From Owenia fusiformis (Eukaryota; Annelida; Polychaeta; Sabellida; Oweniidae), in the NCBI GenBank assembly GCA_903813345.2, contig CAIIXF020000010.1, positions 34,645,425 through 34,709,424 of the forward strand: a DNA stretch of 64,000 nucleotides. Reading direction: 5' to 3'. The stretch's first letter is position 1, and every line of letters begins with the position of its first letter. Under the pieces are notes generated by a model. The model ran no database searches. It had not been told where the DNA came from and saw nothing but the letters and a program-made list of their open reading frames with translations. Below, piece after piece: positions 1-45,605 of the stretch. Both the position numbers and the translations under genes were made by a program.

Positions 1-1
1 A

Positions 2-961
2 GCGATCAATTCTCAATCTGAATCCAATGACAATGAACCTACAAGAAGAAACAACGTGGAAGAGAAAGAAGATCCGCAAAATGGCCAAGACGCCGCGAAT
101 GGAGAAGATTCCGAGCCTAAATTGTCATGGAGACAAAAGGTGCCTCTAATGAACGCAATAAATAAATGGAAAGCGAGCAATTCTCAATCTGAATCCAATG
201 ACAATGATCCTACAAGAAGAAACAACGTGGAAGAGAAAGAAGATCCGCAAAATGGCCAAGACGCCCCGAATGGAGAAGATTCCGAGCCTAAATTGTCATG
301 GAGACAGAAGGTGCTTCTAATGAACTCAATAAACAAATGGAAAGCGAGCAATTCTCCATCTGAATCCAATGACAATGACCCTACAAGAAGAAACAACGTG
401 GTAGAGAAAGAAGATCCGCAAAATGGTCAAGACGCATCGAATGGAGAAGATGCCGAGCCTAAATTGTCATGGAGACAAAAGGTGCTTCTAATGAACGCAA
501 TAAACAAATGGAAAGCGAGCAACTCTCAATCTAAATCCAATGACAATGATCCTACAAGAAGAAACAACGTGGAAGAGAAAGAAGATCCGCAAAATGGTCA
601 AGACGCACCGAATGGAGAAGATGCCAAGCCTAAATTGTCATGGAGACAAAAGGTGCTTCTAATGAACGCAATAAATAAATGGAAAGCGAGCAATTCTCAA
701 TCTGAATCCAATGATAATGATCTTTCAAGAAGAAACAACGTGGTAGAGAAAGAAGATCCGCAAAATGTTCAAGACGCACCGATTGGAGAAGATGCCGAGC
801 CTAAATTGTCATGGAGACAAAAGGTGCTTCTAATGAATGCAATGAATAAATGGAAAGCGAGCAATTCTCAATCTGAATCCAATGACAATGAACCTACAAG
901 AAGAAACAACGTAGAAGAGAAAGAAGATCCGCAAAATGTTCAAGACGCGAGGCAATTGATT
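2..961 (+). CDS. secreted repeat peptide precursor, 5'-truncated by the window (gene 1)
   Basis: The frame is open from base 2, so the gene starts before the window. It encodes five full copies of a 57-residue (171-bp) unit plus partial ends. Each unit has an acidic spacer (EEKEDPQNGQDA..GED), a cationic, Trp-containing, probably helical core (EPKLSWRQKVLLMNAINKWK), a Ser/Asn/Asp-rich linker and a dibasic PTRR site. Units are nearly identical at DNA level, which suggests recent expansion or homogenisation. The exon probably ends at 961, where GTGAGT is a strong donor; beyond it the frame runs into an interspersed repeat and stops at 1015. The paralog at 11785 has the same core and a signal peptide, so secretion is inferred for this gene too. 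I do not recognise the family. An antimicrobial or neuropeptide-type precursor would fit the architecture, but function is unproven. Confidence 0.75.
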
Positions 962-977
962 GTGAGTAATATAATAA

Positions 978-1430
978 TAGATGCGAGTAGAAATAATCTT
1001 GATTTACGTCATTAAATATTCTAATTCTAGTCAAAGTGATGTCATATTTGAAATCTGCATGTAAAAGTACATCAGAAATATGGTTTCGATAATTGTCTAT
1101 CAACTTTGATATGTTACAAAATTACAAAAAGTGAATTATCTTGTATTGGACAGATAACATTTTCTTTTTTCTGGCGATATTTTAATTTGCATAACTATTA
1201 GATACATAAGGGTTATATGAGAATTGAACCACGCAAATAGATGTAATTTAGGTTACAGGGAACTTTCTTCTATACCCGCCATGCTATCTGACCCGAACGA
1301 GCCATCTGGTGGTGAATCTGCTAACTACCCACCGGGAACTTTCTACTATACCCGCCATGCTATCTGACCCGAATTACGAGCCATCTGGTGGTGAATCTGC
1401 TAACTACCTACTCGCATCTGCGTAATTGTA
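978..1430. repeat. interspersed repeat, copy 1 of 2
   Basis: From about 978 the sequence matches 34886-35310 closely (GATGCGAGTAGAAATAA, then TTGATTTACGTCATTAAATA and onward). This copy ends with two tandem versions of a ~75-bp block containing CTATACCCGCCATGCTATCT. No coding frame is present. The copy lies just inside the probable first intron of gene 1. Confidence 0.75.
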
Positions 1431-3911
1431 TATAGTTTCTAGGGGATGGAAACTATCAAAAACTGTCAATCGTTTTTAATGTCACACTTGTTTTTGATAG
1501 CTTGCTAAGTTTACATTCTTTAAAAAACAATAGAAAACTAATGCACTCTCCTTTTCATTAAATCATAGATTCTTCATTCATTCATGCATGTAGTTAATTA
1601 ACATGTTAAAATTGTTAAACATGTAGTGGCGTAGCCAGCAATTGGTGACCAGGGGTTCGATTTTTTATGTTATCCACAAACCTCCCCCTTCATTGGTGTA
1701 CCTAACATAAAAGCATTTTTTGTATTTGTCATACATACAATTCATCCTTTCATTCACATGTTCATTCACAGATATGTCAAGTTCTGAAACATGCAATTCC
1801 CACGCTTTTAGCTGATTTTTGAAAAGATTCCAAATCAAAAGATTTTTATTTGCCATTTCATTTTATTTGCTTGTTATTTCTTTTTTTTGTGGCGCACAGT
1901 GACAGATGACAAATAGTATTGTATTAATGGAATGAAACATAGGCTGAAATTCCAAAATGACCAAATTGAAATAACAATATTTCCACTGTGCTCTGTAGCT
2001 CTAGCATTAAACATTTCTTTTAAATTTTAATGCCTTGCAACAAAAAACAACTAATGCTGAAAAACCTATTTGTTCTTTCTTTGAATTGAAAATAAAAAAT
2101 AAAACATTCCATTCTCTATCACCGTTCCGCTGTTTTTTTAATTATCATAAATGACGAGAAACATGAACGTTTAGAGAAATGAAAACATTTAAGTTGAACT
2201 TGTGAATCAACATAAACTTTAATTTGCTTTTGAGAAATGAACATTTTATTATCTTACTAAAAAATGCTGTCAAATCCTTTTTTCCTTTTTTCCCCTCCAG
2301 AAGTTTGGCAACCTTTGCTTCCTCCTCTTTATTGTTATATTTTGCTTTGGTTACGTATAAATGATTTAACATAAAACAAGAAGTAGTGTTCCATGTTTAT
2401 TTAATGTTCAGGATTAATCCTACTCTACGACATAATTACTTTGATTGAATCCTGGTTCTCAACTTATGTTGATGGTTTTTATAGAATTTAGAATTTTGAT
2501 AGAAAGTCACATAGTTTTGAAGTTTATATCTAAATAAAATGTTAATGTTGCTTAAACCAAAAATATCCGAAAAGTGATTCTATACTGGAAAGATGCTATC
2601 TTAACCAGATTCAAAAGAATGTTAAGACCGCCACTTTTCCATATAAGGAATGTTAACGAAAGTAACACTCTTAAAATTTGAACCATACAATATTATGTTT
2701 GAATTTTTATTTACAGAACCCGCGAGGAAAATACTTATAACATTGAGGGAAATGTAACTTGACTTCATTTCCAATGCTACAAATTTTCCCAATTTTTTCT
2801 CCTATTTGATGAATTTTTGAAAAACGTCATTCCCATGAAAACCAAGGGGAACCCATGGGCTTTATATTCAATTAGTAGATTAGATTCAACCGCAGACCAT
2901 CTGTAATTAGGTCTTTGAAGTGATTAGGTTTAAAAAGTGATTATCAGGAAGCATATTGCATATTGGTGCACCACATGATTTATCAAACATTTTTATTCTT
3001 AAACTTTTCCCTTAACTGTGAAAATAAAATACTCATTCGAAATAATAAATCTAGACTTATTTGATATAATACTTCTTGTGCCTTTGCTTTCCTCAGCAAA
3101 AGATGACTGCATCTGTTTTTTATTGGACAGAACTTTCCACTGCATGTAATGTGTGTACCTTTTTAGCTTACACTTGTATTTAGTACCAGGGACATACTCA
3201 CATAATTGCCTCCCTTAATCCATTTATTTGCTAAACATATATAATTAATGACATTAACACGATCCACTAAAGTTTGATATATGTGAAAATAGAGGATATA
3301 CTAAATACACCTACACAGCTACAATTCAAACTTTAATTTAAATTTAAATAAACTTTAATTTTAATTAATTTTAATTTAAACTTTTTAAATAATCTCCGGG
3401 ATAAACGTGCATCTGAAAAGAAAACTAATTTTTTTCGCAATGGATTTATTTTCCTTAAAGGGACAACGTGCGTAAATGAAGTCTCACTTTTGATGGATTG
3501 ATAAGTACCTGATCTTTCATTTGACACCAAAACAGCTCAAACAGACCACATCAGAGTTGACACTAGCTCATGAAAAAATATGTTGGATGTATAGATGTCA
3601 AGTTTTTAGCAATGCCATAGAAAGATGGCATTGTTGTTTGCATTAATTGTCCATTCATTTCCGATAGGATTTTCAACCATACGCCATCTTTTGTCCAAAG
3701 GTTATTTATGTTTCTATTAATTAATATTTGCTTATCAGCCCCGGGTATATTTTTGTTTGAAATAAAATAAAACGGAGGCGCACGGCTATGGGCCATGCAC
3801 ACTAAAGTCAGTTCTGAAAGTACCAACAAAAAGTTCCGAAAAGCAAGCCCAATGTCCTGTTTAAGAAACCATATTCTTACCTTTGAAAATGGATTTTAGT
3901 AATACTATCCC
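1431..3911. other. AT-rich intronic/intergenic sequence, no gene seen
   Basis: This is probably part of the large intron of gene 1. It is AT-rich, with a low-complexity TTTAAATTTAAA-like stretch near 3330-3390 and a short GTGGCGTAGCCAG piece near 1626 that resembles the ends of the GC-tract repeats at 16345 and 27343. No convincing exon or RNA gene was found on either strand. Confidence 0.5.
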
Positions 3912-4760
3912 ACATGAATTTACTTGTTAAGACTCGATCAACTTGAGTTCTTCTGAGAAAATGAGGAGTTTAGCAAGGGTGCATTCACTCAACACGGGGA
4001 AATACACCATTGGCCATTGACTAAGCGTAGGGATACTAAGCAAATATTTCATTCTATGAAGGGCAATACCTGTTCATCTTTCAATGATTTTTGCAGTATG
4101 TATTGCCCGCAGCCCGTAGGGCGAGGGAAATACATGCTGCAAAAATCATTGAAAGTGCAACAGGTATTGCCCGAACATAGAATGAAATATTTGTTTTATT
4201 ATATCATTGCTAGACATTCGCTTACTTTGCAGACTGGCACTCTTGTAATATTCCCCATCCTTCGTTCGCAGTTCCAAAAAAATCCTCTAGAATTCCATCC
4301 AGAACGATTTTATCGATAGATTTAACGTCTATTTCGTTTGTGGACATAACACTTGAAAATGTTCTAAGACATTAGATGTCATTCCGTTGATTTAATGGTG
4401 TTTTTAGAATGCACATCCCTCAAGATGTCGTTCTTTTCATCGGAATTCAGACTTTTAAATCTTTTTCCGTCTGCCTTGATGCACGTCACAACTGTACTGA
4501 ACGAAACGGGACGATTCAGAATTCCCGGGCGGGCAATACGCCGGGCAATACGTCTTTTATAATTCCAAAATTAAGGGAGCTGTGAAATACGCTTTGGTAT
4601 TTTTGATCACATGGTACTGAATCAGCCAATCAAAGGACACAAATTCTAGCAATGATATAATAACATCATGTATGTCACCATGTAAAGTCAATGCACCCTT
4701 GCTGAAATCCTCATTTTTCAGAAGAAGTCAGGTTGATCGAATCCCAACAAGTTAATTCCT
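3912..4760. mobile_element. foldback (non-autonomous DNA transposon-like) element
   Basis: Imperfect terminal inverted repeats pair 3912-3990 with 4685-4760: ACTCGATCAACTTGAG..AGCAAGGGTGCATT on the left answers AATGCACCCTTGCT..GGTTGATCGAATCC on the right. An inner palindrome (about 4036-4195) pairs CAATGATTTTTGCAG and its complement around a GGGCAATAC motif. There is no transposase frame. Target duplications are not clear. Confidence 0.7.
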
Positions 4761-4871
4761 GCTGGATAGAAGATGCTAGAATAGGGGCTCTTAAAACGGG
4801 ACATTAAAGCTTGACGAAGGCTTCTTTGAAATTTTTTAAGTACTATATTATAACTGTACGTTTACTTTCAG

Positions 4872-4944
4872 AATTGAAACCAGTACAAGGGCTTTAATGA
4901 CAGAATGGCATAACACGAATCAGCATGACAGTCTCCAAAAATGA
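4872..4944 (+). CDS. candidate last exon of peptide gene 1
   Basis: A pyrimidine-rich acceptor (TTTACTTTCAG) is followed by a stretch that aligns base for base with the last exon of gene 2 (13815-13885), including the stop codon position (TGA here, TAA there) and the downstream GCTTGGACAAACAT-like 3' UTR. In the aligned frame it reads RALMTEWHNTNQHDSLQK then stop. Splicing from the donor at 961 (phase 0) would instead reach a TGA after one codon, so this exon may be wholly or mostly 3' UTR, or another exon may intervene. Confidence 0.5.
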
Positions 4945-4984
4945 GGAAAAGATAAAAGATAAACTTGGACAAACATGACTTAAG

Positions 4985-5285
4985 AATTCAAGCCCTGGAC
5001 TCAGTACAATGTGGAATGACCATTCCTTGAAGATTTTGCATGAAATGCGCAGCATCGAGTGTTACTTTTCGGAAACAATACCTGCATGCAACGCATTGAG
5101 TCTTGGGCTTAAATTATTTTCACACATTGCAAATAGATTCTACCATGCTACTTAAAAAATCACTAAAAAGAACGCAAGGCCCAAGTTGGCAAAGCATCAA
5201 TTTCAATCTGGAGAGTCAAGTTGTCACCTTGACAACCAAACTAGGAACGAGCTTGGACACACCTTGCCTACGTAGCTATTTGTGA
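4985..5285. repeat. interspersed hairpin repeat, family with GACTCAATGCATTG ends
   Basis: Same family as 15585-16130 and 24748-25030. The hallmarks are GTGGAATGACCATT, GCGCAGCATCGAGTGTT, GCATTGAGTCTTGGGCTTAAA, then TTTCACACATTGCAA. The end block GACACACCTTGCCTACGTAGCTAT also occurs in the tandem units at 8650 and 9800. It is non-coding. Confidence 0.7.
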
Positions 5286-5639
5286 ATTTGTTAGTTAGTG
5301 TATGAATGAATTTGTACTTATAAAAGTAACTACATATCATTTGACAAATTCAATATGGATACTTTCGATGATCATTAATTATCCATGTTTTGTCGCGTTA
5401 TAAAGAACTGAAGCCATTATTAAGCCTGCCCATTAGCATAGCAGCATACGTGTAGAAACACCATATAGCTTTTTAGATTTTGAATTGAAACTAGTTTTGT
5501 TAATGTTTACAGTTAATTTTGATTTGGTTATACATATTGTTAGATGCACATTATATATTTCTTACATAACACTTCTTTCAAAAAATATACAATGCCATAA
5601 GTATATGGCTTCTTAGATTTTGAATTGAAACTAGTTTTG

Positions 5640-7735
5640 TTTTTTTGCGACGGCGGTTGGTGGTTGGTGGTTGGTGGTTGGAGGTTGGAGGTTGGAGGTT
5701 GGCGTCCGGCGTCTGTAACAATTTCTTACAACTTCCTATAACTTAACAAATACTGGTTAGACTGACTTCAATTTTTTTCTAAATCATCTACATGTTCTCA
5801 GAAGTCCAAATCTGACTTTAGATTTGACATTTGACCTTCAATGACCTTCTCAAGGTCAAAAAGGTCTTTTTTCAACTTGCTTCACATTGACTAATTTTTT
5901 TTCAAAATCATCTACATGTTCTCAGAAATTCAAATCTGACTTTAGATTTGACTTTAGATTTGACATTTGACCTTCAAATCTGACTTTTGATTTGACATTT
6001 GACCTTCAATGACCTTCTCAAGGTCAAAAAAGGTCAAAAAGGTCTGTTTTCAACTTGCTTCAAATTGACTAATTTTTTTTTCAAAATCATCTACGTGTTC
6101 TCAGAAATTCAAATCTGACTTAAGATTTGACTTAAGATTTGACATTTGACCTTCAATGACCTTCTCAAGGTCAAAAAAAGGTCAAAAAGGTCTGTTTTCA
6201 CCTTGCTTCAAATTGACTAAAAAAAAAATTCAAAATCATCTACGTGTTCTCAGAAATTCAAATCTGACTTTAGATTTGACTTAAGATTTGACATTTGACC
6301 TTCAATGACCTTCTCAAAGTCAAAAAAGGTCAAAAAGGTCTTTTTTCAACTTGCTTCAAATTGACTAACATTTTTTTCAAAATCATCTACATGTTCTCAG
6401 AAATTCAAATCTGACTTTAGATTTGACATTTGACCTTCAATGACCTTCTCAACGTCAAAAAAGGTCAAAAAGGTATTTTTTCATCTTCCTTCAAGTTGAC
6501 TAAATTTTTTTTTCAAATCATCTACATGTTCTCAGAAATTCAAATCTGACTTTAGATTTGACATTTGACCTTCAAATCTGACTTTAGATTTGACATTTGA
6601 CCTTCAATGACCTTCCCAAGGTCAAAAAAGGTCAAAAAGGTCTGTTTTCAACTTGCTTCAAATTGACTAAATTTTTTTTTCAAAATCATCTACGTGTTCT
6701 CAGAAATTCAAATCTGACTTAAGATTTGACTTAAGATTTGACACTTGACCTTCAATGACCTTCTCAAGGTCAAAAAAGGTCAAAAATGTCTTTTTTCAAC
6801 TTACTTCAAATTGACTAAATTTTTTTTTCAAAATCATCTACATGTTCTCAGAAATTCATATCTGACTTTAGATTTGACATTTGACCTTCAATGACCTTCT
6901 CAAAGTCAAAAAAGGTCAAAAAGGTATTTTTTCATCTTGCTTCAAATTGACTAAATTCTTTTTTTCAAAATCATCTACATGTTCTCAGAAATTCAAATAT
7001 GACTTTAGATTTGACATTTGACCTTCAATGACCTTCTGAAGGTCAAAAAAGGTCAAAAAGGTCTTTTTTCAACCTGCTTCAAATTGACTATTTTTTTTCA
7101 AAATCATCTACATGTTCTCAGAAGTTCAAATCTGACTTTAAATTTGACATTTGACCTTTAATGACCTTCTCAAGGTCAAAAAAAGTCAAAAAGGTCTGTT
7201 TTCAACTTGCTTCAAATTGACCAAAGTCATCTACATCTTTTCAGAAGTTCAAATTTGACTTTACAAGTTCTCAGAAGTTCAAATCTGACTTTAGATTTGA
7301 CCTCTGACCTTCAATGACTTTCTCAAGGTCAAAAAGGTCTTTTTTCAACTTGCTTCAAATTGACTAATTTTTTTTTCAAAATCATCTACATGTTCTCAGA
7401 AATTCAAATCTGACTTTAGATTTGACATTTGACCTTCAATGACCTTTTCAAGGTCAAAAAGGTCTTTTTTCAACTTGCTTCAAATTTACTTAATTTTTTT
7501 TTCAAAATCATCTACATGTTCTCAGAAGTTCAAATCTGACTTTACATTTGACATTTGACCTTAAATGACCTTCCCAATGTCAAAAAAAGTCAAAGAGGTA
7601 TTTTTTCAACTTGTTTCAAATTGACAATTTTTTTTTCAAAATCATCTACATGTTCTAAGAAGTTCAAATCAAACCTTCTTAAGGTCAAAAGGTATTTTCC
7701 AACTTGCTTTAAATTGACCAAATTGTTTTAGGTGG
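5640..7735. repeat. ~130-150 bp minisatellite made of AGGTCA/TGACCT motifs
   Basis: About 14 units are anchored by CATCTACATGTTCTCAGAA. Each has AAATCTGACTTTAGATTTGAC, TTTGACCTTCAATGACCTTC, TCAAGGTCAAAAAAGGTCAA and a poly-T tract. The array starts with a GGTTGGTGGTTGG tract at about 5650-5710. It interrupts the repeat unit that resumes near 7760. The hexamers match nuclear-receptor half-sites; see findings. Confidence 0.85.
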
Positions 7736-8060
7736 TGACATTTTGTCATGTTAATGCCTTGTTAATGTTTACAGTTAATTTAGATTTGGTTATACATATT
7801 GTTAGATACACATTATATATTTCTTACATAACACTTCTTTCAAAAATATATACCATGCCATAAGCGAAAAGTGAATACCAGAGAAATACATGACTCTGCC
7901 CCCCCCCCCTCCCAGATCCAGATCCGCCATTGCAACGCGGCCTGACGGTCGTCTCCAGTGTACTTTTGTCTCAACACGGAGGTGCGTTTTTACATTATAT
8001 TGTTCGTCAAAAATTCATCGATAGTCGCTTACATTTACAGGTAGGTTCTCAAATATAATA

Positions 8061-8485
8061 CAAACAACTTCAATGGTTCAAAACGATGTATATTGTGTAA
8101 CCTTTGTGAAACTGAAACAATTGAACATTTTATATTAAGATGCCCTATGTATGAGTCATATAGGCACAACATATTTGAAGCCCTTGGCTGTCGTGGTGAC
8201 AGTATGCATGTTATTATGAAGATAAGTTTTAGTTTCAGATGTTTCATGTGAGATGTTAATAATTGTATCATCATCTGTACACAAAATGTACAATCACAGA
8301 GCCAACCTGTTAGCTCTGCTTGACACGTAATTTCTCTATCACTTTATTTTTATGTTTTCCAAAACAACAACTTTTTATCACATAATTTAATCTTATCCTT
8401 GTATATTATATTTTATATGTAAAATTAATACTAAAATGTATTCTCTCATATAAATGAGGCAATAAATATACAATACAATACAATA
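8061..8485 (+). pseudogene. non-LTR retrotransposon 3' tail (copy A)
   Basis: This encodes the degraded C-terminus of a LINE ORF2, with the zinc-knuckle-like CNLCETETIEHFILRCPMYE pattern (C-x2-C-x8-H-x4-C). It is followed by a 3' UTR and a (CAATA)n tail. A frame break lies near 8222, where the other copy reads on. It is duplicated with its host unit (compare 9211-9632) and absent from the third unit near 10360. Confidence 0.75.
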
Positions 8486-9210
8486 CCATTGAGATTTTAA
8501 AGTCGTAACGACATAACTTGCAAAATTTCAAAATGGCCGCCACTTTAACGCGGGAAAGTTATACTTAGTGCCAAACAAGGAACGAGCTTGGATGCGGTGA
8601 TTTGTTATATAATGAAATGCAGTAACGTGAAATAGCTTGTTCTTATTGGCTGGAATCGGACACACCTTGCCTACGTAGCTATGTGTGATTTTGTTAGTAA
8701 TAAGTGTATGAATGAATTTGTACTTATAAAAGTAGCTACATATCATTGGAGAAATTTAATATGTATACTGTCGATGATCATTAATTATCCATGGAAGTCA
8801 AACATGTTTTGTCGCGTTATAAAGAACTGAAGTCATTATTAAGCCATTAGCATAGCAGCATACGTATAGAAACACCATATAGCTTTTTAGATTTTGAATT
8901 GAAACTAGTTTTGTTAATGTTTACAGTTAATTTAGATTTGGTTATACATATTGTTAGATGCACATTATATATTTCTTACATAACACTTCTTTCAAAACAT
9001 ATACAATGCCATAAGTGATAAGTGAATACCATAGAAATGCATGACTCTGCCCCCCCCCCTCCCAGATCCAGATCCGCCATAGCAACGCGGCCTGACAGTC
9101 GTCTCCAGTGTACTTTTGTCTCAACACGGAGGTGCGTTCTTACATTATATTGTTCGTCAAAAATTTATCGATAGTCGCTTACATTTACAGGTAGGTTCTC
9201 AAATATAATA

Positions 9211-9632
9211 CAAACAACTTCAATGGTTCAAAACGATGTATATTGTGTAACCTTTGTGAAACTGAAACAATTGAACATTTTATATTAAGATGCCCTATGT
9301 ATGAGTCATATAGGCACAACATATTTGAAGCCCTTGGCTGTCGTGGTGACAGTATGCATGTTATTATGAAGAAAGTTTTAGGTCTTTCAGATGTTTCATG
9401 TGAGACGTTAATAATTGTATCATCATCTGTACACAAAATGTACAATCACAGAGCCAACCTGTTAGCTCTGCTTGACACGTAATTTCTCTATCACTTTATT
9501 TTTATGTTTTCCAAAACAACAACTTTTTATCACATAATTTAATCTTATCCTTGTATATTATATTTTATATGTAAAATTAATACTAAAATGTATTCTTTCA
9601 TATAAATGAGGCAATAAATATACAATACAATA
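9211..9632 (+). pseudogene. non-LTR retrotransposon 3' tail (copy B)
   Basis: Near-identical to 8061-8485, with an open frame from 9243 to 9482 (79 residues) ending HRANLLALLDT. The C-x2-C-x8-H-x4-C motif is intact. The (CAATA)n tail and a short AATA repeat at the junction mark a 5'-truncated insertion into the tandem unit. Only the last ~80 residues of the polyprotein remain. Confidence 0.78.
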
Positions 9633-10589
9633 CCATTGAGATTTTAAAGTCGTAACGACATAACTTGCAAAATTTCAAAATGGCCGCCACTTTAACGCGG
9701 GAAAGTTATACTTAGTGCCAAACAAGGAACGAGCTTGGATGCAGTGATTTGTTATATAATGAAATGCAGTAACGTGAAATAGCTTGTTCTTATTGGCTGG
9801 AATCTGACACACCTTGCCTACGTAGCTATGTGTGAATTTGTTAGTAATAAGTGTATGAATGAATTTGTACTTATAAAAGTAGCTACATATCATTGGAGAA
9901 ATTTAATATGTATACTGTCGATGATCATTAATTATCCATGGAAGTCAAACATGTTTTGTCGCGTTATAAAGAACTGAAGCCATTATTAAGCCATTAGCAT
10001 AGCAGCATACGTATAGAAACACCATATAGCTTTTTAGATTTTGAATAGAAACTAGTTTTGTTAATGTTTACAGTTAATTTAGATTTGGTTATACATATTG
10101 TTAGATGCACATTATATATTTCTTACATAACACTTCTTTCAAAACATATACAATGCCATAAGTGATAAGTGAATACCGGAGAAATACCTGACTCTGCCCC
10201 CCCCCCCAGATTCAGATCAGCCATCGCAACGCGCCGGGCCTGACAGTCGTCTCCACTGTACTTTTGTCTCTGCACGGAGATGTGTTCTTATATATGTATA
10301 TTGTATTGTTCGTCAAAAATTCATCGATAGTCATTTACATTTACAGGTAGGTTCTCAAATATAATACCATTGAGATTCTAAATTCGTAACGGCAAAACTT
10401 GCAAAATTTCAAAATGGCCGTCACTTTAACGCGGGAAAGTTATACTTAGTGCCATATCAAAGGAATAATTGTTTTGATTTGGTCATAATTTATAGTAACT
10501 TCCTTTCAGACAAATTGCTGCGGAAGCAAAAGGTTCGGGAAATATTGCTTTGTTTTGCATTAATATGTTGAAATATGTTTCCATATGTA

Positions 10590-11150
10590 CATTAATACCA
10601 ATGCGGTTTTGAAGTCAAAATCGCTGTTAACACTGGTGATCCGCTCGATTACGCTGGTTACCGAAACGGTCCCTTTTGGTAACAAAATGTCGGAACGTCG
10701 AAGGTACGATTTTTCTTTTTTCCTTATTTCACGCGTTGTATATCAGTATCATATGTTTAAGAAGATGTATATGTTTGCGAAAAAATAGCTCAGAAGACAA
10801 CACAATCGTCGATTTAATTCCTCACTTAAGTTACATAAACGGTTTGGGTTAAAAGTGCAGATCTTAACTGTTTTTCGAAATACCGTTTATGTAACTTAAG
10901 CGAGTAATTAAATCGACGATTCCGTTGTCTTCTGAACTATTTCTTCGCAAATATGTACATTTTCTTTAAAACATATGATACTGATACACGTTTGTGATAA
11001 AAATGTCGTGGGAATTCTGCCTACAACGTTAGGCTACGTGTGAAATAAAGAAAAAAGAAAAATCGTACCTTCGATGTTCCGACATTTTGTTACCAAAATG
11101 AACCGTTTCGGTAACCAGCCTAATCGAGTGGATCACCAGTAGTTAATCAA
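10590..11150. mobile_element. ~560 bp foldback element
   Basis: Arms 10590-10840 and 10885-11150 are inverted repeats. GTTACCGAAACGGTC, CGATTTAATTCCTCACTTAAG and CAGAAGACAACACAATCGTCG on the left answer GACCGTTTCGGTAACC-type, CTTAAGCGAGTAATTAAATCG and CGATTCCGTTGTCTTCTGA sequence on the right. The spacer is ~45 bp. The left arm has an incidental 67-codon frame at 10585-10788 that is not a gene. Confidence 0.75.
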
Positions 11151-11720
11151 ACTAAAATCTGCGCAATGTGAGCCCAGCAATCTTGATCCATCAAGGTATT
11201 ACACATCGTCGGTTCCCACGCTCAATCACTACGTTCTACCGAGGATAGGTCCGAAGCGTAATGATAATGAAGCAAGATGATGGGTATTACATATGACTGA
11301 AGGATTGCACTGGTTTAACAGTATGGAGCCGAGCACTAATGTACTACTTTAAATATTAAGCTGCACATTGAACGATTGTTAAGAGATATACCTTGTCAAG
11401 ATTACTTTAAATTGCGGCCAGCCAACCTTTTAAGGCATGCTTATTTGAATTTAAGCATTATAGCCCTTACTTAAAATTTCGCTCTGATTGCACTTTTTGT
11501 ATCATTTCCTAGAGAAATTATGAATTTTCTCGCAGGTCTATGAATTTTAACGTATATGACTTTATGTCCGCTTACTATGTATTTGTCGATTCTGTCTATT
11601 TCATCATATTTTGCATTTTTCAAATTACTCGATTCAAATTTTATACACTTCGGTAACGCATTAAATGTTTTTAAAATACTTGTGTTTGAAATAGGGACCC
11701 CACTGACCCACAGCTTCTCA
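11151..11720. other. upstream region of peptide gene 2, nothing further seen
   Basis: Moderately AT-rich unique sequence between the foldback element and the TATA box of gene 2. The 106-codon frame at 11556-11876 overlaps the promoter and start of gene 2 in another frame and is not believed. Confidence 0.4.
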
Positions 11721-11721
11721 C

Positions 11722-11731
11722 GCTATAAAGA
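11722..11731 (+). promoter_or_regulatory. TATA box of peptide gene 2
   Basis: GCTATAAAGA lies about 60 bp before the ATG at 11785. That leaves room for a start site near 11755 and a 5' UTR of about 30 bases. It is a canonical TATA element, in keeping with an inducible or tissue-specific secreted product. Confidence 0.65.
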
Positions 11732-11784
11732 CGCGTGGATATATCAGAACGTTTCAATTTGTTTTCAACAAGAAGTTCGACAGA

Positions 11785-12220
11785 ATGAGGAATTTCAATG
11801 CGATGTTATTTGCCGTGTTGGTAGTGGCTCTTGCAGGGGAAATGAACGCAAAGAGTTATTTCCGAACAGATCTTGATGAGTTGGAAAGAGCCATTCGAAT
11901 ACAAGGGGAGACGCAGATTGATCAAGATACTCAAACAGATGCCGAGCCTAAATTGTCGTGGGGACAGAAGCTGCTTATGATGATGAAATCAGTGAACAAA
12001 TGGAAAGCCAGCGATACTGAAGATAGCGCCAATGAAAATGATCTGACAAGAAGAACAAACGCGCAAGAGCAAGAAAATGCGCAAGATGGGCAAAACACTT
12101 CAAGTGGGTCTCCTGATGGCTCTGAACAAAAAAAAGAAGATTCCAAGCCTAAATATTCATGGGTACAGAAGGTGCTTCCTATAATGAACGCAGTGGGCAA
12201 ATGGGGAGGAATGGGAAATT
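11785..12220 (+). CDS. secreted peptide precursor, exon 1 (gene 2)
   Basis: The start at 11785 gives a clear signal peptide: basic MRN, a hydrophobic core AMLFAVLVVALAG, and a likely cleavage after MNA (residue 22). Then come a leader (KSYFRTDLDELERAI), a first repeat core (AEPKLSWGQKLLMMMKSVNK), an acidic linker ending DLTRR, a long Gln/Asn/Ser/Asp spacer, and a second, diverged core (SKPKYSWVQKVLPIMNAVGK). This is the two-repeat paralog of the gene at 2-961. The exon ends at 12220 before GTGAGT (phase 1); unspliced, the frame stops at 12228. The product would be about 146-168 residues depending on the acceptor used downstream. Cationic amphipathic cores between acidic segments suggest a membrane-active or signalling peptide; this is inference only. 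Confidence 0.8.
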
Positions 12221-12594
12221 GTGAGTAATATCAGCCATTTTGATACCTACATTTTCTCAATATTGATTTCACTATAGTTTCTGTTAAAACCTTATCAATG
12301 ATATACAACAATCCATATTGATTATATCACTGTTATATTTCTATCTTTCTAATTGGCCCATGTCCTTCACGTGACATGATATGACGTGATATGATATTCA
12401 CAAGTCACGACTTCGTCGAGTGTAATTTCGATTGTATACCCCCGGCAGAATTACACAATAATGGTTTGTTTTCCCATCAATGTGAGTTAGGAATATAACA
12501 GTGAATAATAAAACAAATATTTAATTCAATTTCCAGTGAAAACCTGTGGCACTTTGACAAGATGATATTCCACTACCACTTTGGGCTTCGTGGA

Positions 12595-12774
12595 TATCAC
12601 TTGTGAAAGATTTATAGGATATCCTATGATATTGAAGGATATCATTTTTACCGACTAGGTAATATATAATACTAATATTGATATCTGCACGAGAGAGCAA
12701 AGCGAAGGAGTGCATATATCAATATCACCGAGTAGATTAAAATGATATTCTGAAAAAATCATAGGATGTTCTTA
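12595..12774. repeat. AT-rich hairpin repeat flanking a MITE
   Basis: This carries AGGATATCCTAT and ATATTGATATCTGCACGAGAG followed by AGCAAAGCGAAGGAGTGC, a hairpin tip. The same module occurs in inverse orientation next to the related MITEs at 41435-41590 and 43344-43500. It lies in the intron of gene 2 and is non-coding. Confidence 0.7.
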
Positions 12775-13044
12775 TTATCCTACACTAACAAAGAGTGTAC
12801 TAAATGTATATTATCATTGCAAAATGAAGTTCATGTCAAATAGAGTCAATTTGGCGGAAAATCAACAAGCGGAGTATAGTCTATAGTCACAATATCCTCC
12901 GCATATTAGGTTCTCCGGAGTATATTGTCACGATATCCTCCGCCCGGAGTATATCGTTATATCCTCTGGTTATTCATTTTGCTAATAAATATCAGATTTA
13001 TTTTGTAATGTTATTATACATTTAGTACACTAAGTGTAGGATAA
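12775..13044. mobile_element. MITE with TTATCCTACAC ends (copy 1 of 3)
   Basis: The terminal inverted repeats are TTATCCTACACTAAC.. and ..TAAGTGTAGGATAA, with ACTAAATGTATA/TATACATTTAGT next to them. The interior has CCGGAGTATATCGT palindromes. The same element is at 41138-41434 and 43076-43343. It lies in the intron of peptide gene 2. Confidence 0.8.
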
Positions 13045-13814
13045 TCACTGGTATTCACCTCAACAGAATTAAAATATTTTGTTTCATACAGTAGTTATAA
13101 TGATTTCTCTTAGTTATAATTGTACACTGCTGTTTCAAAACTACCTAATGTTTTAGATGGACTTCTTTGACATTTTATTTTAAGGCCGACATTTTTTAGG
13201 ACCCCAGATGGGCCTTGTTGGTATTATTTGGCCTTATCTCTAATTTAAAGAGAGAATCAGATATAGCGAGCAGGCAAACAAAAAATTGTTTCAATTTTAG
13301 AATATTTCTGGCTCATGCCATTCCTTGTCATGTCTATTTTCTAAAAATCCAAAAAGTGCACACTTTATTTCAGGAAAACTCGAGATTTTTACAATAATAT
13401 ATTATTTTTCTATAAGAATGGTTACCATTCTTATTATTTGGGAGAATTTAAACATTTTCCACCTATTTTTGCACATTGAATCCGTAATAACTTCGTCAAT
13501 TTATAACATATCACGAATCTTTTGGGAGATATTGTATTTGAGATTGTAAGGAATATATTGGTGGGTCAATTGTACATGTTGCTTGTAATTTTGTCACCCA
13601 TATAGATCTGATTCTGCCTTTAAGGACAAAACGTCAAGAGAATGGGACCTTTTCAAAATAAATTTTAAAACTACTTGTTAATTTATAGATCCGTCCCTGA
13701 TGGTGTGAATAAAATCGTGTATGTGAATATCCCCATAAATGTAATTCATTTACGCGATAAAATTGTTTATCATGCCTTAATTACTATCTAGTATTGTACT
13801 TTTATTTTCAGAAG
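13045..13814. other. rest of peptide gene 2 intron
   Basis: No repeat or exon was recognised until the polypyrimidine acceptor TTTATTTTCAGAAG at 13801-13814. Small open frames at 13215-13549 look random. Confidence 0.4.
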
Positions 13815-13885
13815 TCCAATCGATGATGAGGGCTTTGTTGACAAAACGGCATGACAAGGATCATCGTATGGAACTTCAAAAATAA
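13815..13885 (+). CDS. candidate last exon of peptide gene 2
   Basis: The acceptor is a NAGNAG site (CAGAAG, 13809-13814). With AG at 13813-13814 the phase-1 junction gives TTC and the frame reads FQSMMRALLTKRHDKDHRMELQK (23 residues), stopping at 13883-13885. With AG at 13810-13811 the junction codon becomes TAA and the protein ends at once. A homologous segment with the same stop position exists for gene 1 at 4872-4944. The differences between the two are mostly non-synonymous, so coding status is uncertain. Confidence 0.5.
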
Positions 13886-14682
13886 ATAAATATCTTGAGA
13901 AAAGCTTGGACAAACATTTATCTATAGCTAGTGAATTCTTATCAGTGGATATCACTGCTAAACATACCTATATTGTTTTGGAACAAAATCAGTAATATTG
14001 GTATTGTTGATGAATTCTGCGCGGAAGTGAAATATGTTTTGTTGCATTTTGAAGAGTTAAAGTCAGTATAACACCCTTAATTTAACAGGATAATGTATAA
14101 ACATCAGATAGTTTTGTAGATTCTAGATATGTAAATGTATAGTTTTGTACATGTTTACAGTTATTTTGGATTCACCAATACATTAATTTAAGTTGCACCA
14201 TATACTTTATCTTAGTCCATGCTCTCCATCCTTCTAAGCAGGTATCCAGAATCCGTACCTCCTCTTTCCCCCCTGCTATAACCAATTTGGAAGCGCCCGA
14301 TTAAACTAAATCACGTGATCTAATTATGCGCAATGACTTATACATGATTTCTATCGCAGTGTTGCGACAGCCAATCAGATTGCGAGTACTTAATTGGGGA
14401 AATGCTAACTGCTTATCGCAGGGGATAAAAAGAAAGAATATATTCTGGATTTTGAAGCTCTGTGATCGGAGAATGATGCTCTCATATTCAATTTTTATTC
14501 ATTTATGATATGGATATATCTTAATATTTCTTAATATTATGTATATTTAAACTTAAGATTAGCATAACATTAGGAACTTTGCAATGAATGGACACTTGAA
14601 AAAAGCATCTCCTAGAACCACAATCAAATAAAAAATATAGTTCGCCAAATTGCTTATTTTTATCAATTTTCATGATATTATC

Positions 14683-16510: not shown

Positions 16511-17546
16511 GTCTTACGTAATTTAGGTTTGAACGCGCGTAAGACACATCTTATTCACTTTTACAAAGCGTGCAGTTGATCCTTACTCGAGATTTTAACA
16601 GGATTCATCTGGCTCATATATACATAGTACTCTTTGAACAGTTGCAAGTGTTAGACCTTTGCTTAGCCATTTGAGGTATGTTCATTTTGTCTAAATGTGA
16701 TGAAATAAGACCTGTCAAATAAGGTCTTTAAGGAAATCAAAGATGAGGATCTAGAGTCTTAAGTTGAAATCCATTCAGGTCAACCTGTTTACTAATATAT
16801 GCACTTATTTTGTGCAATGAATTTTGTATTAAATTAAATGTATAGAGCACGTGTAGTATTCAAAAGTTACCTTTGAAGAAAAGCTCTTTCACTTTTAAAG
16901 TTTTATTCATTGCAGTAAAAAGAGGCTGTCGCTAAAATAGCTAAAAATGTTTTACTTGGTGTATTGATTTAATAAACTGAACAGGTTATGCTGACTTTCC
17001 AGGCATCGAGATACTGCAACAGGCTATAATCGATGAAGGTTACTTATATTTGGACCTCGACGGTCGTAGTTTCCGGTGTACACGCGTGATGTAAGCATGA
17101 GATATGACGATTGACAACGAATTATCTTAAATGTCGTGTCAACTCTGAGAGCTACACCTGTCAATGTACATGATAGTTAATGAAAATACAGAATGAAATC
17201 CTGTGCCAATGGCTTATGTGAAATACTACAATAAAACTATGTATCCAATACAAGAGGAGGGAAAGCCCAAGAGTTGAACTCTGGTGTTTCTCCCCCTCTG
17301 ATCCAATACCAAGGAGCAAGCAACTGGCGCCCTGATCGAAAAATTCTACTAAATACACGAACAGTAGTCGTCCAGATAGTGAATTTCACACAGGGGCATA
17401 TACCTTCCTGGTATTGCGTTCGTCTTCGAACCAAATCCTACTAACCGATGATGATGACGCTTCATGGACAATTAATTATTGCGATTGAATTATTCATCCT
17501 GATCAGCATAGTTTGTGTGCCAAATCGGATATTTTGACCATTAGCC
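16511..17546. other. upstream region of the cGAS-like gene, no gene seen
   Basis: Unique AT-rich sequence without recognised repeats. Small minus-strand frames at 17161-17434 have no recognisable features. No TATA box was convincingly placed. Confidence 0.4.
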
Positions 17547-19391
17547 ATGGAAGCCGGTACAAGTAGCAGTCCTGAGGTCCATACAAGATGGCGGAGTCCT
17601 CCTATAAAAACAATCCCCTTAATCAAGGGCACTCTCTCTGAACTCGAGGACCAACAATTATCAAACAATGTAGCAGAAATACACAACTTGGCTAAACTGA
17701 AACATAACACGGCGGAACTTGATGGGCATATAGAGTATATCAAGACTCGAATTATACAACCAATCATTGATAAATTCAACAGAATGTACCCACAGTTGGC
17801 AGTGGATGATGTTCTTCTTAATGGAAGCATGTCCAACAGGACTAAAATATTAACTCCTGGAGAATGTGATTTTGTGCTCCCAATGGCTCTCTCTAGATAT
17901 GTAGTAGTGGTCTATCCCAGTGATAGTACAGCTAAGTATTACATACCTGGTAAATTAGACGTAAAACTACCCAATGAACAACATCCCGATGTATTAGATC
18001 TCATCAAAGAGTACCCCGAGATGGTAAAACCAAACACTGCACTCAAAACAGGGTATATAATTCAGTCGATCATTCGTGGAGCTGTTGCAGAATGTTTATC
18101 ACAACTACACATGGAAGGTGCCATAACCCTCAGGGGAATTACAGATCTGGAAAAAGAGCTGCCCGTCGAATCAATTCAACTGCGAAAGCATGACGTCATT
18201 ATTGACAAAAGAGCGCATGGGCCCAGCCTTCGCTTCAGGGTGTGGGGACCATTGTGTGTAACAGACATGGACCTGACATTCTGTCTGAAGATAATCAATA
18301 TACCCGAACTGCCCTATTCAGAGGACAGCTTCTATATGGCATTGGACATGGGACATGGCTGGATAAAATCATACTATGAGAAACCTCATTTGCGAGCTTC
18401 AAGAATAGACGGTTATCATATTGTACTGAGAACACTGAAATATATTCTACTACAGCATGAGAAGAAGCGTCTTTACAATGAAAAGTCGACAACCTTTTAT
18501 TCCCATGCACTATTCACCATTGCAAGATACAATCAGGAAGAATGTGAAAGCAAGCCATCGCTGGGAAAAGGTTTCTCTGATATCACACACAAACTGAGTC
18601 AGTTTCTTTTAAGATCTGTAGAGAATACAACAGAAGTTGAAGTCAGTATCAAATGGCTTGAAGATCTCTTTGATAAAGACTGTACTGATATGCGTCTCAT
18701 TTTTGGAGCAACAGATGCCATAGAAACGACAACACTTATATTCTCACTGGTTGTGTACATCCTGCCTGAAATATTGAAATCAGTAAGAGTTACGTCATCA
18801 AATTTTTGCGCATATCTTGAGCTGGTTATTAAAGAGTGTGAGATGGAATACGCGAGAGAACATTTACTCCAAGATCCAAAAAGTATGTTTACATCGGTTC
18901 AGAGGGGAGAAATCTCATCTCTGAAGGAAAAGAAAGAGCTGTCCAGGAATCGAAGTTTACAGGATCATGGATATCAAAAGTTTGCCGTTTTTATTGATAC
19001 TCAGAAAATGATATCAAGACTGAAACCTATGATAACTAAGGTGGTATCGCATATTGAATCAGATAACATGGACCCCATAGTATGTGAAAGCAATCGTGAA
19101 CCAGACACTTTCTTACCTCAAACGGACTCATTACGACCTAACAGTTCATCCTCTACCATTGCGCGCAATGTATGTGTGGGCAATTCCGATCCATCTCAAA
19201 CTGTAAAAGAATCTACTACATGCGAGGACACACATGTTTGTAATGATCAACACATATGTGGTAAATGCAGAAAAAGTTGCGGAATGACCAGTACATGCTG
19301 GTTCTGCCATTTCGCGAGATGTTATGAATGTAATCAACAAGAACACGAGTGTAAACCATCGCCTTCGCCATGCCCGTTATATGAAACATAA
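17547..19391 (+). CDS. cGAS-like receptor / Mab-21 family nucleotidyltransferase with Cys-rich tail
   Basis: Single-exon, 614 residues; the start has a strong Kozak context (GCCATGG). Residues ~55-430 match the Mab-21/cGAS fold. NGS at 92-94 is the nucleotidyltransferase GS motif, PGECDFVLPM contains the E106-x-D108 metal pair, and VTDMDLTFCLKI supplies the third acidic residue (D242, or D240). All catalytic positions look intact, unlike many Mab-21 proteins. A helical C-lobe follows, with IDGYHIVLRTLKYILLQH at about 287-304. After a Ser-rich linker, residues 559-609 form a Cys/His-rich segment (HICGKCRKSCGM, CWFCHFARCYECNQQEHEC), probably zinc-binding. Animal cGAS-like receptors sense cytosolic nucleic acid and make cyclic dinucleotides for STING; that role is inferred. 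A structural Mab-21 protein without catalysis is the alternative. Confidence 0.85.
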   Translation: MEAGTSSSPEVHTRWRSPPIKTIPLIKGTLSELEDQQLSNNVAEIHNLAKLKHNTAELDGHIEYIKTRIIQPIIDKFNRMYPQLAVDDVLLNGSMSNRTKILTPGECDFVLPMALSRYVVVVYPSDSTAKYYIPGKLDVKLPNEQHPDVLDLIKEYPEMVKPNTALKTGYIIQSIIRGAVAECLSQLHMEGAITLRGITDLEKELPVESIQLRKHDVIIDKRAHGPSLRFRVWGPLCVTDMDLTFCLKIINIPELPYSEDSFYMALDMGHGWIKSYYEKPHLRASRIDGYHIVLRTLKYILLQHEKKRLYNEKSTTFYSHALFTIARYNQEECESKPSLGKGFSDITHKLSQFLLRSVENTTEVEVSIKWLEDLFDKDCTDMRLIFGATDAIETTTLIFSLVVYILPEILKSVRVTSSNFCAYLELVIKECEMEYAREHLLQDPKSMFTSVQRGEISSLKEKKELSRNRSLQDHGYQKFAVFIDTQKMISRLKPMITKVVSHIESDNMDPIVCESNREPDTFLPQTDSLRPNSSSSTIARNVCVGNSDPSQTVKESTTCEDTHVCNDQHICGKCRKSCGMTSTCWFCHFARCYECNQQEHECKPSPSPCPLYET

Positions 19392-22848: not shown

Positions 22849-24597
22849 ATGGACAACAAAATTATGAAATTTGACGATACCTTGTCAAAGATTGGAGGAT
22901 TCGGGAGATACCAGAAGCTTCTCCTACTAGGCTTCATTATATTTTATCCAGGAAGCAGTTACCAGTTTACTAATATCAACTTTCTCGTTGGAGGGATGGA
23001 CCATTGGTGTAGATTCGATTTTCACAGTGGTTTTAATAAAACTTATCTCAAGGAGCTAATTATTCCAAAAGCTATTAATGAGTTTGGTGAGGAATTCTAT
23101 AGCAAATGTGAAATGTATGATGTCAATATTACCGAACTATGTGATGATCCAGTTGGTGATTTGGGCAAATTGATGCCAGATAGAAATTGGACACGAGTGC
23201 CTTGTAAATATGGTTGGGAATTTGACCGGACTGAGTTCTATTCAACCATCGTAAGTCAGCACAGACTAGTTTGTGATCGATCTTGGCTTCAAACTATACC
23301 GGCTATAGCCTATGTCATGGGCTCATTTTGTGGCTCCATTCTTGCTGGATATTTTTCTGACAGATGGGGTAGAAAATGGACTGCAGTTTTAATGATAATG
23401 GGCCAAATGTTATGCAATATAGCAGAAGCATTTTCGCCATATTTCTGGCTATTCGTTGGACTACGATTCTTAGTAGGAATTTGGAATATGGGCGCGTATT
23501 CTGCACTTTGGATTCTCGTGATAGAAAACATGCCTCCAGTCTACCGGAACCATTGTACATATTTCTTCACGCTTGGACGAATTCTTGAATTTATTCTACC
23601 TATAATTGCATTCTTTGTTCGAAATCACATACACTTGCAAATAATTGGTGTGGGTGTCGCTGTACCCGGACTTATTTATGCCATTCTACTTCCCGAAAGT
23701 CCAAGATGGCTTCTCTCCCGCAAACGATATAAAGAGTATGATGCTGTGGTGCGTACAATCGCTAAAATAAACGATGTTGCCTTTACCGAAGAGATGACAA
23801 AAGAGACGTCAGAATTCGATTTAGAAGGGAAAGACAATGGGGTCACAGATGAATTAAAGGAAAGGGCGTCTTTCCTGAACTTACTCAGAACGCCACGACT
23901 CAGGCAACGCACCTTGATTGTCTGTTTCCTATGGTTCAGCAGGGGGTTTGTTCTCTATGCATTTGGAACGAATATTGGAAAACTAGTACCAGGAAACATA
24001 TATTTAAATATGGTACTCATAACGGCTGGCTCTGAGGTACCTACGTTTCTTACAATTTGGTTTGCTTTATTTAGATCGGGGAGAAGACTGGCGATGATGA
24101 TCTACATTTTGATAACTGGATTATGTTGTTTATTGATGATTCCGCTAATCATGGTGAAAATGAAGTTATTGGTGACGATAGCTGCTATGATAGCGTTGGC
24201 AGCATTAAAGACGGTGGAGCGAGTCCTCGTGCTGTACACGGGAGAGATATATCCCACCCCTGCCAGGACCATTGGCTTTGGAAGCGCAGCGAGTGCTGCA
24301 CGAATTGCGGCACTGATTGCTACGCAGCTCCCACTTTTGAAACTTATATGGTTTGGCCTGCCATATGTGTTCCTTTCAATATTTCCAATTGCCTCAAGTG
24401 TTTTAGCATATTTCCTCCCTGAAACCAAGGGATGCCACCTACCGGAAACATTTGAAGAAGCGGAAATGTTCGGTACTCGTCTCCATGGTGAATTCGAAAA
24501 GGAAAGAGTTAATACAAATGACTCAAAAGGACTTTCAGAGCCATTTATCACTGATTATACTCATTCGGAAAAGTCAAATTCCGATAAACAGATATAA
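22849..24597 (+). CDS. SLC22 family organic cation/anion/carnitine transporter
   Basis: 582 residues in one exon, the normal length for SLC22. The order of features is typical: TM1 (~21-45); a large extracellular loop with cysteines 54, 87, 98, 119 and 142 and N-glycosylation sites at N63, N93 and N113; the signature YGWEFDRTEFYSTIV..LVCDRSW; the MFS loop motif FSDRWGRK (169-176) after TM2; PESPRWLLS (282-290) after TM6; a long cytosolic loop; GEIYPTPARTIGFG (465-478); and LPETKGCHLPET (523-534) after TM12. It would be a plasma-membrane uniporter or exchanger for organic ions. The substrate cannot be read from sequence. Lack of introns is unusual for this family in vertebrates and could reflect an old retrocopy or lineage-wide intron loss. 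Confidence 0.92.
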   Translation: MDNKIMKFDDTLSKIGGFGRYQKLLLLGFIIFYPGSSYQFTNINFLVGGMDHWCRFDFHSGFNKTYLKELIIPKAINEFGEEFYSKCEMYDVNITELCDDPVGDLGKLMPDRNWTRVPCKYGWEFDRTEFYSTIVSQHRLVCDRSWLQTIPAIAYVMGSFCGSILAGYFSDRWGRKWTAVLMIMGQMLCNIAEAFSPYFWLFVGLRFLVGIWNMGAYSALWILVIENMPPVYRNHCTYFFTLGRILEFILPIIAFFVRNHIHLQIIGVGVAVPGLIYAILLPESPRWLLSRKRYKEYDAVVRTIAKINDVAFTEEMTKETSEFDLEGKDNGVTDELKERASFLNLLRTPRLRQRTLIVCFLWFSRGFVLYAFGTNIGKLVPGNIYLNMVLITAGSEVPTFLTIWFALFRSGRRLAMMIYILITGLCCLLMIPLIMVKMKLLVTIAAMIALAALKTVERVLVLYTGEIYPTPARTIGFGSAASAARIAALIATQLPLLKLIWFGLPYVFLSIFPIASSVLAYFLPETKGCHLPETFEEAEMFGTRLHGEFEKERVNTNDSKGLSEPFITDYTHSEKSNSDKQI

Positions 24598-27865: not shown

Positions 27866-28518
27866 TAAACAACCTGTCACAAGCAGGAAGAAACACTTGG
27901 AATTCAATATTTTTAATTGTTAAAATAGCACAAGTGTGAAATTCCAGTCCAGTTTTTTTGGTTTTGGCACAAGACACTTAATACCTATTAATTATTATAA
28001 GTGGACATATACTCAGCTATAGTTACATTTACTACAAGCTTATATTCTTATTTTAACACTACATCATTGACCTCATAAGGTTATCAGTTAAGTTCCAAGA
28101 GTTTATAACATAAACAATCTCTAGAATTTGATACTGGACACTACTCTTCTGGACATGATGGTATAAATATGTCAACACTGAGGTTTAGATTTCAAGCTAA
28201 ATCATTTTAGATAAAAAAGGAAAGGCTATAAGAATTTGTAATTGATAATTCATGATACTGTAAACTGAAACTTTAACTTTGAAAAAAGAAAGGATGTTGC
28301 AATATGAGCTCTAAGAACCTATCACCCCTATATAGCATAATGGACCAGTCTATGTAAAATATATCTAGTATGTAGTTTTTGAATCTGATACTTCACTTCC
28401 CTATGTTGGGTTAATAAAGCTATACTCTTTATATATCTCAAACATTGTCTTTAACTTAAATAAACTCTCATCTTGAAACAATTACAGTAACAGTGAACAA
28501 GAAAACTAGTTTGATAAT
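27866..28518. other. upstream region of the sulfotransferase gene, no gene seen
   Basis: AT-rich unique sequence. No promoter element could be assigned with confidence. Confidence 0.4.
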
Positions 28519-29577
28519 ATGTTAAGATTGCGTCCTTTGAGATGTTTACTACTTATAATTTTGGTAGCAGGAACTATCAATATAGCACTTATCCTAAGAT
28601 CAACAAATCGGAAACATTGCGTAACATCCTCAATAATAGAGAGGTTTCAAACTGGAGTTCCGTCTATGTCACAAAATAATGAGAGGAAACATTTACTAAC
28701 TAAACATGTGAACACCACTAAGATCATAATCATGGCCACCTATAGGAGCGGATCAACATTCTTGTCCGAACTCTTCAAACAAAATGAGAAAATATTCTAC
28801 GCTTTTGAACCACTTAAACCTCTGATAAGAACATGGGATCGTAGAGATTTGATACAAAAATATGGTGCAATCGTAATGAGAGATATTCTGAATTGTGATG
28901 TTGGGATACTGTCACACATAGCTAAAGGCTGGCATTATTGGATGGTTCGATACAATTATACCGAGTACACATTTGAAACTACGTACCAAATGTGTAAAGG
29001 AAAGAAATTGAGGACGGTGAAAATTATCTCATTGGATAATTTGGAAAATCTTTCCTCATATTTTGGGAATGACACAGCTATTGTTTTACTAGTACGAGAT
29101 CCAAGAGGTATATACAACTCTAGAAACCATTTATACGAAGAACCTCGTGAAAATATAACAGATAGAGAAAATAGACTAAATAGTATGAAACACACATGTT
29201 ATAATTTTGTGACAAACATGAAATTTGTAGAAAAAATTAACAAATTACCCAGACGTGAAAAAGCAGGGATGCCACTCATTAAGCAGATCGCATATGAAGA
29301 TGTTGCGAACAATCCAATTTTAAAAGCCAAGGAGATTTACAAAGAGCTTAACATAGAATTTGATGATCATATATCAGAGTGGATACATCATAATACAAAC
29401 TATAATGGTGACCCAAATGATAAAGACTTAAATGATCCACAATCTACCAAACGAAACTCAAGTGCTACAGTGAACAAATGGTCACACCAGTTGAAGAAAT
29501 CACAAATATACGATCTACAAAATATAACAGACTGCGCTGAAGTTATAAAATTGTTGAACTATGACCTTGTAATTTAA
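28519..29577 (+). CDS. Golgi carbohydrate sulfotransferase (CHST1-7 / GST family)
   Basis: 352 residues, single exon. The N-terminus is a type II signal anchor (CLLLIILVAGTINIALIL, 9-26) placing the enzyme in the Golgi lumen. The 5'-phosphosulfate loop is TYRSGSTFLSELF (74-86) and the 3'-phosphate site is LLVRDPRGIYNSR (190-202), both complete for PAPS binding. EPLKPL follows the PSB, and the C-terminal TKRNSSATVNKWSHQL and CAEVIKLLNY blocks are typical of Gal/GlcNAc/GalNAc 6-O-sulfotransferases. It transfers sulfate from PAPS to sugar hydroxyls of glycoproteins or proteoglycans; the acceptor sugar cannot be told. N-glycosylation sequons occur at about 65, 146, 177, 184, 212, 313 and 335. Intronless genes are common in this family. 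Confidence 0.92.
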   Translation: MLRLRPLRCLLLIILVAGTINIALILRSTNRKHCVTSSIIERFQTGVPSMSQNNERKHLLTKHVNTTKIIIMATYRSGSTFLSELFKQNEKIFYAFEPLKPLIRTWDRRDLIQKYGAIVMRDILNCDVGILSHIAKGWHYWMVRYNYTEYTFETTYQMCKGKKLRTVKIISLDNLENLSSYFGNDTAIVLLVRDPRGIYNSRNHLYEEPRENITDRENRLNSMKHTCYNFVTNMKFVEKINKLPRREKAGMPLIKQIAYEDVANNPILKAKEIYKELNIEFDDHISEWIHHNTNYNGDPNDKDLNDPQSTKRNSSATVNKWSHQLKKSQIYDLQNITDCAEVIKLLNYDLVI

Positions 29578-45280: not shown

Positions 45281-45605
45281 ATAAAGGCAAACTCCTGTAT
45301 TATTGCATACTCTGACTTCATTAAATGCATGATTGGCTCAAGACCATTCCATTCCCTTACAGCAGTTCTACTTTGGTAATCCTACAATATAAAGGCAAAC
45401 TCCTGTATTATTGCATACTCTGACTTCATTAAATGCATGATTGGCTCTAGACCATTCCATTCCCTTACAGCAGTTCTACTTTGGTAATTCTACAATATAA
45501 AGGCAAACTCCTGTATTATTGCATAATCTGACTTCATTAAATGCATGATTGGCTCAAGACCATTCCATTCCCTTACAGCAGTTCTACTTTGGTAATCCTG
45601 CAATG
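45281..45605. repeat. 108-bp ARMC3-derived satellite, distal three units
   Basis: Three more units in the same phase as the array ending at 39222, showing that the 6-kb element split one array. Confidence 0.9.

Follow-up and report, generated by a model that had tools for sequence, protein, structure and literature searches.

The spacer between the peptide copies of apidaecin precursors consists of RR plus acidic dipeptides. In the account of the honeybee precursor in PMC11678341, a pre- and a pro-sequence precede many copies of the peptide with a conserved oligopeptide between them, and copy number varies among sequences. For crinoids, the passages of PMC9793003 on this subject describe neuropeptide precursors predicted by a signal peptide and putative peptides bounded by dibasic sites. 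The echinoderm multi-copy precursors treated there (AN peptides, F-type SALMFamides) show the same arrangement, with signal and peptides in separate exons of the F-type SALMFamide genes. Sea urchin SpTransformer (185/333) genes are presented, in the relevant part of PMC9623053, as immune genes with internal repeats.

We analysed a stretch of 64,000 nucleotides of Owenia fusiformis on contig C10, called the window below, which holds two related genes, A and B. A protein search of the genome found a third paralogue, gene C, on contig C2. Each of the three genes has a signal-like N-terminus followed by 2-6 copies of one short cationic core (six in A, two in B and six in C, 14 in total), and the precursors are 411, 145 (to the donor) and 340 residues long for A, B and C, with cysteine absent from all three. 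As in multi-copy precursors, the signal, judged by eye, is in frame with several similar cores that have dibasic sites between them. With the apidaecin precursor they share a pre/pro-sequence ahead of a peptide that is repeated a varying number of times. They differ from it in that their cores are not proline-rich and their spacers, 29-46 residues as deduced from unit lengths, are longer and less regular than the dipeptide spacer, a comparison made by description. The signal peptide and the repeats bounded by dibasic sites are common to A, B, C and the echinoderm neuropeptide precursors, whereas in A, B and C signal and repeats lie in one exon, and amidation and a short bracketed peptide are lacking. 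The likeness to SpTransformer is one of description, and the three genes were not placed in that family.

Table 1. Positions of the features of genes A and B in the window.
Feature	Position	Strand	Remark
Gene A exon 1	1..961	+	begins at the final base of core A1; GTGAGT at 962 is the putative donor
Gene A core A2	113-172	+	
Gene A core A3	284-343	+	
Gene A core A4	455-514	+	
Gene A core A5	626-685	+	
Gene A core A6	797-856	+	
Gene A putative 3' exon	4872..4944	+	alignable with its counterparts in B and C
TATAAA upstream of gene B	11724..11729	+	read from sequence
Gene B exon 1	11785..12220	+	putative donor GTGAGT at 12221
Gene B signal-like peptide	11785-11850	+	hydrophobic
Gene B pro-segment	11851-11943	+	
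Gene B core 1	11944-12006	+	
Gene B spacer	12007-12144	+	with TRR
Gene B last core	12145-12207	+	
Gene B putative 3' exon	13812..13885	+	AATAAA at 13881-13886 and 13885-13890

Gene A crosses the left edge of the window. The near-identical 171-bp repeat that an initial annotation had noticed there was recovered by Tandem Repeats Finder (5.5 copies, 94% matches, window 1-948), and its array is fully open in the frame 2-1015. The same annotation gave this gene five repeats; five cores are indeed wholly inside the window, but the whole gene has six and a signal peptide of its own. Its start codon lies 221 bp to the left, at C10:34645204 (L009:6805; the window starts at C10:34645425), and the exon that holds the repeats also carries the signal peptide and first core, both just outside the window. 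The protein opens MRNFNAMLSAVLVLILAGEMNAKSYFRTDLDELERAIRIQ..., continues with six cores and is encoded by a single open frame of 411 codons. Gene B, on the plus strand, was found as annotated, with a signal-like N-terminus, two diverged cores and an upstream TATAAA (Table 1). The canonical TATAAA is present only in B; at the aligned place A reads TATAGA and C reads TGTAAA. A, B and C can be aligned from the upstream sequence through the start context and the signal to the pro-segment, SYFRTDLDELERAIRIQ, which is identical in the three. Signal and repeats share one exon and one open frame in 3/3 genes, stop-free over 145-411 codons, so the refuting condition named in the annotation, a lack of any transcript joining the signal exon to the repeats, no longer turns on a splice in these predicted genes.

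The putative 3' exon aligns in A, B and C; in B and C it ends with AATAAA. In A it is probably non-coding because joining it gives an early stop. A coding role for this exon was considered and judged unlikely, since C stops before the donor, within exon 1, A stops right after the junction and B does likewise with the first acceptor, where the immediate stop leaves a protein ending ...GGMGN. With the second AG of gene B (exon from 13815), 23 residues would be added.

Other features were observed in the window. A minisatellite with a diverged unit of about 135 bp (12 copies, TTTGACATTTGACCTTCAATGACCTT motifs) occupies 5981-7670. One stretch occurs in two neighbouring copies, at 8045-8830 and 9195-9977, whose ORFs are nearly identical and by eye resemble those of mobile elements. 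Tandem copies of a 108-bp (36-codon) unit number 20.9 at 36966-39222, with 97% matches, and 3.0 more lie at 45278-45604; minus-strand ORFs of the larger array read REWNGLEPIMHLMKSEYAIIQEFAFILQDYQSRTAV, which we take to be armadillo/HEAT-like. An intronless frame of 617 codons at 17538-19391 presumably encodes a protein resembling Mab-21/cGAS-type nucleotidyltransferases, and it had no Pfam match at E 0.01. Long single-frame genes for a sugar-transporter-family (MFS) protein and a sulfotransferase lie at 22849-24597 and 28510-29577. Elsewhere in the genome, an exon of a vasopressin/oxytocin-type precursor with CFITNCPPG-GKR was seen in L018 (contig C5, minus strand, near 5380-5500) and its neurophysin exon in L017; a table passage of PMC7181382 lists CFITNCPPG from two crabs and from neither echinoderms nor hemichordates. 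The H2A/H2B set of the genome looked deuterostome-like. Pfam bindin, the cuticle family PF00379, COX1 and one crinoid peptide printed in PMC9793003 gave no match, in searches that had no animal as positive control; the control for COX1 responded in 8 of 14 named genomes, all prokaryotic.

The three loci account for nearly all matches in the genome. In protein searches of 498 Mb with three queries, they took 15/16, 14/15 and 14/14 matches, or 43/45, these counts being lower bounds. A match at C6:21554244 (E 0.08) was rejected as low-complexity sequence, and another at C10:20562394 (E 2.85, 35%) was taken as chance. Gene C is flanked by ORFs that resemble, by eye, mobile-element genes. No Pfam or NCBIfam family reached its curated cut-off, and no PDB chain matched protein C or one core, the two queries used. 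Pfam PMAIP1 scored E 1.1e-4 over the whole of protein C (22.4 bits, cut-off 27) with 0 stretches passing; this likeness was taken as a short chance match summed over the repeats. Six peptide stretches of the family had no text match in 5.39 million open-access papers, and nothing recognisable as this family appeared in titles and abstract openings of papers on multi-copy or echinoderm antimicrobial peptide precursors. No relative was confirmed among viral contigs with protein C as query, nor among GTDB prokaryote contigs with an alignment of 13 units. The proposal of a secreted, unnamed and tandemly repeated precursor family is supported.

Then, we looked at the repeated unit itself. The core is a cationic, tryptophan-bearing stretch of 18-20 residues of the type KLSWRQK[VL]LLMNA[IV]NKWK, with a net charge of +3 to +5 per 18 residues in 14/14 cores, and it is preceded in every case (14/14) by a D[AST][EK]P boundary. 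Spacers are acidic and rich in Asn, Asp and Ser. In line with the dibasic TRR that the annotation gave for most repeats, an RR-bearing spacer follows 12/14 cores (11 TRR, 1 SRR), the last cores of B and C being those without one. Each spacer has exactly one RR, and the sole further dibasic site is a KK in B. KR is absent from the three exon-1 proteins, and no Gly precedes RR, as an amidation signal would require, in the A, B or C protein. A, B and C thus differ from neuropeptide precursors, in which dibasic sites enclose a short peptide that often carries a C-terminal Gly.

The cores had been called cationic and amphipathic. The charge was borne out, but amphipathicity was no better than in shuffled sequences: the hydrophobic moment at 100 degrees was 0.24-0.32 for the 14 cores (shuffle p 0.15-0.48), while magainin 2 reaches 0.45. 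For a set of six, made up of four cores as 18-mers and two cores trimmed to 15-mers, shuffle p was 0.11-0.80 over helical and 0.19-0.62 over strand angles. The cores thus have the net positive charge of helical cationic antimicrobial peptides, but an amphipathic helix like theirs is not supported. A single-sequence AlphaFold model of B (mean pLDDT 50) was too poor for use. Cutting at RR alone gives pieces of 47-66 residues, counted from residue 23, and all 14 core-bearing ones are net acidic (-1 to -5). Hence either extra trimming is needed to free a cationic peptide, or the product is the entire unit. One exception favours cationic release: if B were cut also at KK, its final piece would have 28 residues and a charge of +2 (hand count). 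The claim that each repeat releases one cationic amphipathic peptide at TRR is not supported as it was put.

Next, we compared substitutions in cores and spacers. Among all 36 A-C core pairs, B being left out, dS was 0.78, dN 0.076 and dN/dS 0.10, a ratio drawn from few sites of a short core in pairs that are not independent; in six A-C spacer pairs dN/dS was 0.32-0.78. The ratio was 0.24 for A-A cores, 0.10 for C-C cores (five of six), 0.55 for A spacers and 0.58 for B-C over the whole. In the mean A-C core pair 5/9 changes are synonymous versus 19% expected (P 0.015). One spacer pair leans the same way (8/20, P 0.03) and another does not (5/20, P 0.37). The N-terminal region had dN/dS values of 0.45 (B-C), 0.54 (A-C) and 1.12 (A-B), and its changes showed no significant synonymous excess (5/15, 3/8 and 2/10). 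Six columns (P, W, Q, M, K, W) are invariant and five nearly so, all in the core, in an alignment of 13/14 units (A6 left out) that includes two units without spacer, which kept any spacer column from counting as invariant; every one of the 12 spacers has its RR. On these comparisons the core appears more constrained than the spacers.

The repeat unit has 57 residues in A and mostly 49 in C. The last unit of B and C is distinct and common to both (63% identity), and because of this shared unit we infer that B is close to the ancestral layout, that A and C may have amplified core 1 separately and that A may have lost the last core. Core C3 (L010:6129-6188) is 90-95% like the A cores versus 87-88% like C1, C2, C4 and C5 over 60 bases, which suggests exchange or gene conversion between chromosomes, or an old variant.

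Our best explanation, to which we give an even chance, is that A, B and C form a small family, recently duplicated, which encodes secreted multi-copy peptide precursors, with host defence as the most likely use. The proteins would enter the secretory pathway and be cut at RR by a furin/PC-type protease; further trimming of the acidic flanks, for which the D[AST][EK]P boundary is a possible site, might then free the core, unless the active product is the complete unit of about 50 residues. The acidic segments could, as a guess, keep the cationic peptide quiet during synthesis. Counting for a peptide precursor are the signal and repeats in one exon, the RR after 12/14 cores, the absence of cysteine, the conserved upstream and start context, the constraint on the core and the amplification in units of 57 and 49 residues, and also the existence of multi-copy antimicrobial precursors with spacers, such as the honeybee apidaecin precursor of PMC11678341. 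The separate rise in copy number in A and C would fit selection for peptide dose. Counting against it are the acidic RR pieces, amphipathicity no greater than in shuffles, the missing amidation signal, the N-terminal region without significant synonymous excess and a dN/dS contrast that comes from few sites. Judged from the DNA, A, B and C most likely make up an unnamed group within the broad kind of multi-copy secreted peptide precursors, with defence slightly favoured over signalling or structure; defence as the use of the peptide is a guess.

Other readings were weighed against the same evidence. A, B and C could be precursors of neuropeptides or peptide hormones; the products released at RR, either the units of some 50 residues or cores trimmed from them, would then act on a receptor. 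Under the selection rules given in the crinoid passages of PMC9793003, they could be listed as predicted neuropeptide precursors, and the RR after 12/14 cores and a core seemingly more conserved than the spacers point the same way. We consider this reading unlikely, however: the core is not closely flanked by dibasic sites, Gly before RR and KR are both missing, no Pfam family is reached at cut-off, and the three copies found are recent, with the unit length altered between them. Alternation of acidic spacers with cationic cores, and a copy number varying through tandem duplication, would also suit a structural, adhesive or mucus-like secreted protein that is never cut and whose charge-alternating repeats serve assembly. 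The RR kept after 12/14 cores, the shortness of B for a structural repeat protein (two cores, 145 residues) and the apparent constraint on the core relative to the spacers all argue against such a protein, and we do not expect it to be the answer.

That the genes are degenerating or recently transposed functionless copies, whose frames persist because the duplication is young, seems very unlikely to us. The N-terminal counts (2/10, 5/15, 3/8), the seeming loss in A of the last core and of the frame into the 3' exon and the mobile-element-like ORFs, recognised by eye, on either side of gene C would agree with decay, but three frames have remained stop-free over 145-411 codons, and the synonymous share of the mean A-C core pair (5/9 against 19%) speaks against it. 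A further reading, possible though rather doubtful, is that of secreted peptides of a class not named before, whose core KLSWRQKxLLMNAxNKWK is cationic and non-amphipathic. They would be made as polyproteins in which the core was amplified at least two times independently, perhaps with interchromosomal exchange, and the intact unit of about 50 residues, balanced in charge, would act in place of a trimmed cationic peptide.

If expressed, the multi-copy precursors encoded by A, B and C would enlarge the known set of polyprotein-type peptide precursors of animals by a family without a name. They would also offer a clean test case: two paralogues have multiplied the same core between different spacers, so that the parts that have to stay fixed, core and RR, can be read directly.
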